Shown here: piece by piece, positions 57,307 to 58,690 of the stretch | How the letters are laid out: each line of letters begins with the position of its first letter | Position numbering within the stretch: position 1 is the first letter of the stretch | NCBI GenBank assembly: GCA_018304465.1 | Contig: JAGVWC010000010.1 | Coordinates: 243,473-307,472, forward strand | Length of the DNA: 64,000 bases | From: Candidatus Iainarchaeum sp. | GTDB lineage: Archaea > Iainarchaeota > Iainarchaeia > Iainarchaeales > JAGVWC01 | Direction of reading: 5' to 3' | The notes under the pieces: model-generated | The model's database searches: none | Told to the model about the DNA's origin: nothing | The model's input: the letters and a program-made list of their open reading frames with translations, nothing else | Program-made: the position numbers and the translations under genes

Positions 57307-57711
57307 ATGGAATACGAAAGAATGCTTGATCGGGTGTATATGTCGCTTCCAAAAGAAGCCCTTACCAAGGAACGATTCGAAATTCCCCGCGTGGACTCGT
57401 TTGTGGAAGGAACCAAAACCATCATCCGAAACTTCTCGAATCTGGCCAAACTGGTCCGCCGAACCGACCGGGAAATCTACAAATTTTTCACCAAGGAATT
57501 CGCCGTTCCCGCGCAAATCAGCGGCGAACGACTGATCCTAAACGGAAAATTTTTCGGAAACCAAGTTCAAACCGCTTACGAAAGTTACGTGAAATCCTTC
57601 GTGCTTTGCCACGAATGCCACAAACCCGACACGCATTACGTGGACCAGTCCGGCGTACGCATCCTAAAATGCGAAGCCTGCGGCGCGATTTCGTCCGTCA
57701 AACACATTTGA
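57307..57711 (+). CDS. eif2b: Translation initiation factor aIF2 subunit beta
   Basis: This is the beta subunit of aIF2, the Met-tRNAi carrier. The 134 residues include a central domain with FEIPRVDSFVEGTKTIIRNF and FTKEFAVPAQISGERLILNGKF, and a C-terminal zinc ribbon CHECHKPDTHY...LKCEACG. Start ATG 57307 lies soon after an AT-rich promoter; the mRNA may be leaderless. aIF1A follows 60 nt later, linking two initiation factors. Confidence 0.93.
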   Translation: MEYERMLDRVYMSLPKEALTKERFEIPRVDSFVEGTKTIIRNFSNLAKLVRRTDREIYKFFTKEFAVPAQISGERLILNGKFFGNQVQTAYESYVKSFVLCHECHKPDTHYVDQSGVRILKCEACGAISSVKHI

Positions 57712-57771
57712 ACCAAACAACGAATTTAAAAAAACAAAACACAATCAAACTAACGAATAAAAGGTGAAACC

Positions 57772-58089
57772 ATCGTCAAAAAACCACGCGTACCGCAGCA
57801 AACGGAATTCAAAGTTCGGTTGCCGAACAGAAATGAAAACGAAATGTTCGCGTTAGCGATCCAACTCATGGGCGCAACCCAAATCAAAGCCCAGTGCGAA
57901 GACGGAAAAGAACGCATGTGCCGCATCAAAGGCACCATGAAGAAAAAAGTCTGGATCCGCGCCGGCGACGTACTCATCATCCGACTGTGGGACTGGCAAA
58001 AAGACCGCGCGGACATCATCTGGCGATACTTTGGAACCCAATCGGAACACCTCAAACGAAACGGATACCTCAACAACCTACCGGTTTAA
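57772..58089 (+). CDS. eif1a: Translation initiation factor aIF1A, apparent AUC start
   Basis: This is an OB-fold factor binding the A site of the small subunit. It has TEFKVRLPNRNENEMFALAIQLMG, RMCRIKGTMKKKVWIRAGDVLII, and ADIIWRYFGTQSEHLKRNGYL, typical aIF1A. The track start, TTG 57820, would delete the first conserved strand (EFKVRLP). Upstream in frame to the stop at 57751 there is no ATG, GTG or TTG. The only candidate with a ribosome site is ATC 57772, with AGGTG five nt upstream. I set the start there (105 residues). Confidence 0.85.
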   Translation: MVKKPRVPQQTEFKVRLPNRNENEMFALAIQLMGATQIKAQCEDGKERMCRIKGTMKKKVWIRAGDVLIIRLWDWQKDRADIIWRYFGTQSEHLKRNGYLNNLPV

Positions 58090-58126: not shown

Positions 58127-58690
58127 ATGCTTCAAAAAAAACCAGGTCCTTTTCACGGAAAAAAACCCAAGGCGTTAACAGGCCCCGCAAACAAAAAAAA
58201 ACGCGCGCAATACCGTTCTTTGCGCGGAGCAACCTACCCCAAATACCTTCAAAAAGCGTTTCCTTCAAGACCAGAACTATTCCGCGGAATGATAAACGCC
58301 AGGAAAAAAAGTAAACCCGCAGTCGAAGACTATTTTCTTCGAAGACTGTTTTCAAAAAAATTTCAACAGAACTGGAAATACAGTCAACCAGATTTTGCAG
58401 GCGTCGAGTATCTTCAACGAGTCAGAGGAATTCGAACAGAAACGAACATTCCAACTCTGATCAAATTTTCAAAAATGATTTCGGAAATGCTGGACGAATA
58501 TCGAAAAGTACAAGAACGACTGCATCAACTTACCAGCCATATCAAGCTCCCGGTAAAATACACCCAAGGCGAAGGCGCTTTGGTCCGCCACGCGTTTAAC
58601 AATTGTTTTTCCCGAATTTCCCTCCTAAAAGAATACCAATCCGTCGCAGAAAAGAGAATCAAACAACTGCGTGCCCCCGAGATATATTAA
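58127..58690 (+). CDS. Basic hypothetical protein
   Basis: The product is 187 residues, strongly basic at the N-terminus (KKPGPFHGKKPKALTGPANKKKRAQY) and then helical (MISEMLDEYRKVQERLHQLTSHIKL). It has no recognised domain. It lies 37 nt after aIF1A in a translation operon, so an RNA- or ribosome-related role is possible. The product could be compared with the protein at 59616, which has similar length and helical composition but no clear sequence match. Confidence 0.5.
   Translation: MLQKKPGPFHGKKPKALTGPANKKKRAQYRSLRGATYPKYLQKAFPSRPELFRGMINARKKSKPAVEDYFLRRLFSKKFQQNWKYSQPDFAGVEYLQRVRGIRTETNIPTLIKFSKMISEMLDEYRKVQERLHQLTSHIKLPVKYTQGEGALVRHAFNNCFSRISLLKEYQSVAEKRIKQLRAPEIY

Follow-up and report, generated by a model that had tools for sequence, protein, structure and literature searches.

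In bacteria, infC, the gene for initiation factor IF3, starts with ATT in Escherichia coli and with ATC in Streptomyces, and IF3 represses infC by start-codon discrimination; sigR of Streptomyces, which starts with GTC, is also repressed by IF3 (PMC5472188). For eukaryotes, the work of Ivanov (2010) and Martin-Marcos (2011), as it is cited in PMC5756025, describes eIF1 (SUI1) as limiting its own synthesis via a poor AUG context, and the basic N-terminal tail of yeast eIF1A favours suboptimal and near-cognate starts (PMC5756025). Among archaeal factors, the one for which discrimination against non-canonical starts has been demonstrated is aIF1, in Sulfolobus (PMC6237735), and aIF1A is the orthologue of IF1 (PMC7531240). 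In the part of the literature that we searched, near-cognate starts are not described for initiation-factor genes of archaea.

Here we describe an archaeal aIF1A gene that appears to start with AUC. It lies in a window of 64,000 nucleotides, by which we mean the whole stretch of DNA that was analysed. The source is a Diapherotrites/Iainarchaeota-like metagenome-assembled genome (MAG) of 15 contigs and 1.25 Mb with a completeness of 91.9%; a named relative, at 66% identity, is a Candidatus Diapherotrites archaeon.

The aIF1A gene and its start region

The frame matches the equivalog model TIGR00523 with 123.7 bits (cut-off 102.9) and the OB-fold domain PF01176 with 68.1 bits, the full profile (1–64) being covered, while residues 9–103 of the query match the solved aIF1A of M. 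jannaschii (1jt8, E = 1.7e-27). By these three matches, the ORF is clearly aIF1A. The gene that adjoins it upstream, encoding the beta subunit of aIF2, was additionally positive with NF003067 (152.4 bits, cut-off 129; Table 1). As both genes are in the same frame, read-through from aIF2 beta was considered and rejected, because the in-frame stops TGA 57709, TAA 57727 and TAA 57751 intervene. Downstream, an ORF of 187 residues (58127–58690, + strand) separates aIF1A from a RIO1 kinase gene; it has no match in Pfam or NCBIfam.

Table 1. Features of the aIF1A start region and the adjoining gene (positions in the window)
Feature	Position	Strand	Remarks
aIF2 beta subunit gene, ATG start	57307–57711	+	adjoins aIF1A upstream; PF01873, 109.2 bits
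Closest in-frame stop ahead of aIF1A (TAA)	57751–57753	+	
Shine-Dalgarno (SD) sequence AGGTGA	57762–57767	+	complementary to the 16S 3' end ...GATCACCTCCT
GTG in another frame, inside the SD	57764–57766	+	start codon of the rival frameshift/indel model
aIF1A coding sequence	57772–58089	+	106 codons, with AUC start and stop counted
Proposed AUC start codon	57772–57774	+	no canonical codon in frame; modal SD spacing; aligned with the TTG of relatives
A6 run	57778–57783	+	with C57784 reads A-AAA-AAC in the frame of GTG 57764; site of the indel error or -1 frameshift in the rival model
TTG, first canonical in-frame codon	57820–57822	+	Leu of R-x-R-L-P; judged internal; no SD

The aIF1A frame is open from 57754 to the TAA at 58087–58089 (sequence RIKGETIVKKPRVPQQTEFKVRLPNRNENEMF...). 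From the upstream TAA down to TTG 57820 there is no in-frame ATG, GTG or TTG. The first-pass annotation had reported this gap, placing it ahead of the conserved first strand of the protein. The absence of any upstream canonical start was borne out, but the first such codon in frame, TTG 57820, encodes the Leu of a conserved R-x-R-L-P tail that sits just ahead of the OB fold and does not belong to a first strand. The distance of five nucleotides given for AGGTG was likewise correct (AGGTG 57762–57766, then AAACC, then ATC 57772–57774). The 16S rRNA of the source genome terminates with ...GGATCACCTCCTTTC, leaving a matching anti-SD intact, so that the full SD is GGAGGTGA; the full match to it extends to AGGTGA, and the spacing to ATC 57772 is then 4 nt.

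Start codons in the source genome and in relatives

SD spacings were counted in sampled stretches of the source genome totalling 304 kb. With SD matches of at least 5 nt, 4 nt was the commonest spacing, seen at 12 of 38 ATG starts and at 18 of 50 chosen starts. Since only about one in six genes of the source genome carries an SD of this length, its placement at aIF1A is informative.

Use of ATC as a general start codon in the source genome was not supported. Among 442 genes, near-cognate codons that have an SD at 3–6 nt and lack a nearby canonical start amounted to three ATCs, of which that of aIF1A is the sole compelling one. The candidate in an OBG-type GTPase was rejected because a good ATG lies 24 nt downstream, and the third because the ORF has no family match and has other possible starts. 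This third ORF (L063:18602–18886, + strand), on the same contig just upstream of the window, is short, has GGAGG four nucleotides before the ATC, a GTG 51 nt upstream and an ATG 33 nt downstream, and no match in Pfam or NCBIfam; its start is uncertain. When all codons were tested in those genes in which no canonical start has an SD, ATC accounted for 4 of the 15 SD hits, from 229 of 11,060 positions, at least one of the four being doubtful by homology. With a single compelling case in 442 genes, AUC would be rarely used in this genome, and its use falls on an initiation factor. The genes for aIF1, aIF2 alpha, aIF2 beta, aIF2 gamma, aIF5B and aIF6 all start with ATG, so that aIF1A alone among the seven initiation-factor genes examined lacks it.

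The first-pass annotation had suggested comparing the start codons of relatives. We called starts manually, by position and SD, for aIF1A across the phylum (78 distinct genes): about 17, from nine families, start with TTG (about four of these calls have a plausible internal ATG), one with CTG, one with ATC, several with GTG and most of the others with ATG. The comparison supports a start at the position of the ATC, where the genome G019 has TTG, but ATC itself occurs in the window gene and in no other. The layout is common to both genes (GGTGA-AAAA-TTG GTT AAA AAA in G019, GGTGA-AACC-ATC GTC AAA AAA in the window), as is the N-terminus Met-Val-Lys-Lys, if the window gene is read from AUC. A further aIF1A of the Diapherotrites (L031) starts with TTG GTT ACG AAA AAA. 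In G013, a complete genome on a single contig, aIF1A has CTG TCT TCA AAG AAA after GGAG, the CTG being at the position that corresponds to the ATC, and no canonical codon in frame. The one genome of the same family, G001, breaks inside aIF2 beta, so that no close aIF1A is available for comparison.

Two side observations concern these relatives. The apparent CTG start of the G013 gene (L015, - strand; G013:C1, about 1196300–1196630) follows directly on a stop codon. In G027, two contigs (C31 and C44; L010 and L033) each contain an aIF1A match, one with a TTG and one with an ATG start, which may be two genes or reflect mixed bins.

As controls, we used the partner factors aIF1 (51 genes of the phylum: about 45 ATG, five GTG, no TTG, one ATA) and aIF2 beta (48 genes: one TTG). 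On manual calls from related genomes, TTG starts in aIF1A (about 17 of 78) differ from those in the two controls together (1 of 99; Fisher p = 3e-6), whereas the difference from the genome-wide frequency in seven relatives, which are also related genomes (46 of 340), is marginal (p = 0.05). Thus, start usage in aIF1A clearly differs from that of its partner factors and marginally from that of the average gene, shared ancestry weakening both tests.

Near-cognate starts were also found elsewhere in the phylum. The single ATA among the aIF1 (SUI1) genes is an apparent start in G019 (L137:435–737, + strand; GGTGA-AAAA-ATA) with no canonical start nearby, and the family match begins at residue 3 counted from it. 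Because aIF1 is the fidelity factor, infC has a nearer parallel in this gene than in aIF1A. In G013, two sugar-nucleotide enzymes with 6-nt SDs, a GDP-mannose-dehydratase-like one (L162:16800–17759, - strand) and an RmlD-like one (L162:7343–8236, - strand), have apparent ATT and ATA starts after GAGGTG and AGGTGA, respectively; in both, the family profile begins at residue 2–3, and neither has a suitable canonical start codon. It is therefore probable that the phylum makes occasional use of AUH starts. An apparent ATC start of the G013 NDK gene was discarded: on our reading of the sequence, what resembles its SD seems to be the tail of an L24e-like gene that lies upstream in a different frame, and a Leu codon usable as a TTG start apparently lies just before the conserved motif.

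Alternative explanations of the missing canonical start

That aIF1A begins at AUC, as the first-pass annotation had put forward, is well supported by the anatomy of the start region together with the comparison of relatives, and translation from AUC 57772 is the best reading of the sequence and a probable one. Four other explanations were weighed.

Translation may instead start at GTG 57764, the aIF1A frame being reached either through an A missing from the assembly (the true run being A7) or by a -1 frameshift on A-AAA-AAC, with the products MKPSSKKPRVPQ... or MKPSSKNPRVPQ.... The GTG frame is open, one extra A would link it to full aIF1A, the heptamer fits X-XXY-YYZ, and the proven frameshift inside the coding sequence of Sulfolobus fucA is an archaeal precedent (PMC8211752). 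Yet this GTG is itself part of the SD and has none of its own, and relatives with the same SD geometry have a proper TTG at the position of the ATC. The A6 run is unremarkable in a window with 200 runs of six A or T, and the fold predicted around the start is weak (about -4 kcal/mol), with only a 3-pair stem after the run. We consider this explanation unlikely.

Quite unlikely, too, is a substitution error or rare variant in the assembly, by which a true ATG was written as ATC. The ATC at 57772 rests on the consensus of one MAG, and a single base change would restore ATG; however, the error would have to have struck the start of the sole initiation-factor gene of seven without an ATG, and the start of this gene is CTG in one complete relative and TTG in many others.

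A start at TTG 57820 would give a protein of 89 residues, which with 115.8 bits still exceeds the cut-off of TIGR00523, so that a gene caller would choose this first canonical in-frame codon. It is nevertheless very improbable as the true start: it has no SD and leaves AGGTGA without a purpose, it removes the basic residues at -3 and -1 of R-x-R-L-P, which are conserved in 71 and 74 of 77 relatives, respectively, and it shortens an N-terminal tail that has at least 8 codons in relatives.

Finally, the next codon, GTC 57775, is 7 nt from the SD, inside the range used in the source genome, and GTC starts are known (PMC5472188), but in relatives with the same N-terminus Val is second, after TTG, and the initiator anticodon would mismatch GUC twice as against once for AUC, while ATA 57757 precedes the SD, so that a start at either codon is hardly credible.

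Possible feedback and comparison with known systems

If aIF1A is translated from AUC, AGGUGA would pair with the 3' end of the 16S rRNA and place AUC in the P site, where the initiator Met-tRNA would decode it with a single mismatch, at the third position, so that the protein would begin Met-Val-Lys-Lys-Pro-Arg.... AUC being a poor start codon, aIF1A synthesis would be low, and its output would depend on how strictly the aIF1/aIF1A/aIF2 complex rejects near-cognate codons. The supply of aIF1A might thereby be tied to the stringency of initiation, as for infC, and by this analogy, which the first-pass annotation had drawn, autoregulation of the infC type may act on aIF1A. Because aIF1A is the counterpart of IF1 and not of IF3, any feedback is of uncertain sign: it could be negative, positive or exerted via aIF1. 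As a tentative idea, which is probably not correct as it stands, the levels of the factors that select start codons, aIF1A and sometimes aIF1, may be set in Iainarchaeota by the weak starts (UUG, CUG, AUC, AUA) of their own genes, in an archaeal homeostatic loop that would have arisen independently of infC and eIF1.

AUC initiation, if true, would mean that archaea can initiate at AUH codons, a class that gene callers do not consider. Weak starts of initiation-factor genes are the signature of start-codon feedback in bacteria (infC) and eukaryotes (eIF1), and with an archaeal example all three domains would be represented.

Among the known systems, Sulfolobus fucA shares an A-rich slippery heptamer with the frameshift model of aIF1A; unlike in fucA, the shift would fall in the first few codons, and it would be unnecessary if AUC is used. 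Like sigR of Streptomyces, aIF1A would have a start outside ATG, GTG and TTG that gene callers miss, but sigR encodes a bacterial sigma factor and its start was shown experimentally. Like eIF1 (SUI1), aIF1A would be an initiation factor with a poorly recognised start of its own; in eIF1 this is an AUG in poor context, whereas in aIF1A the start codon would itself be a near-cognate one, and the protein concerned is 1A. With infC, which also encodes an initiation factor, aIF1A would share an AUH start behind an SD, and as Streptomyces infC starts with ATC, the codon parallel would be exact. The infC product, IF3, is a fidelity factor with a proven loop, while aIF1A is archaeal and known here from its sequence, and the data on the yeast eIF1A tail suggest a sign opposite to self-discrimination of the infC type (PMC5756025).
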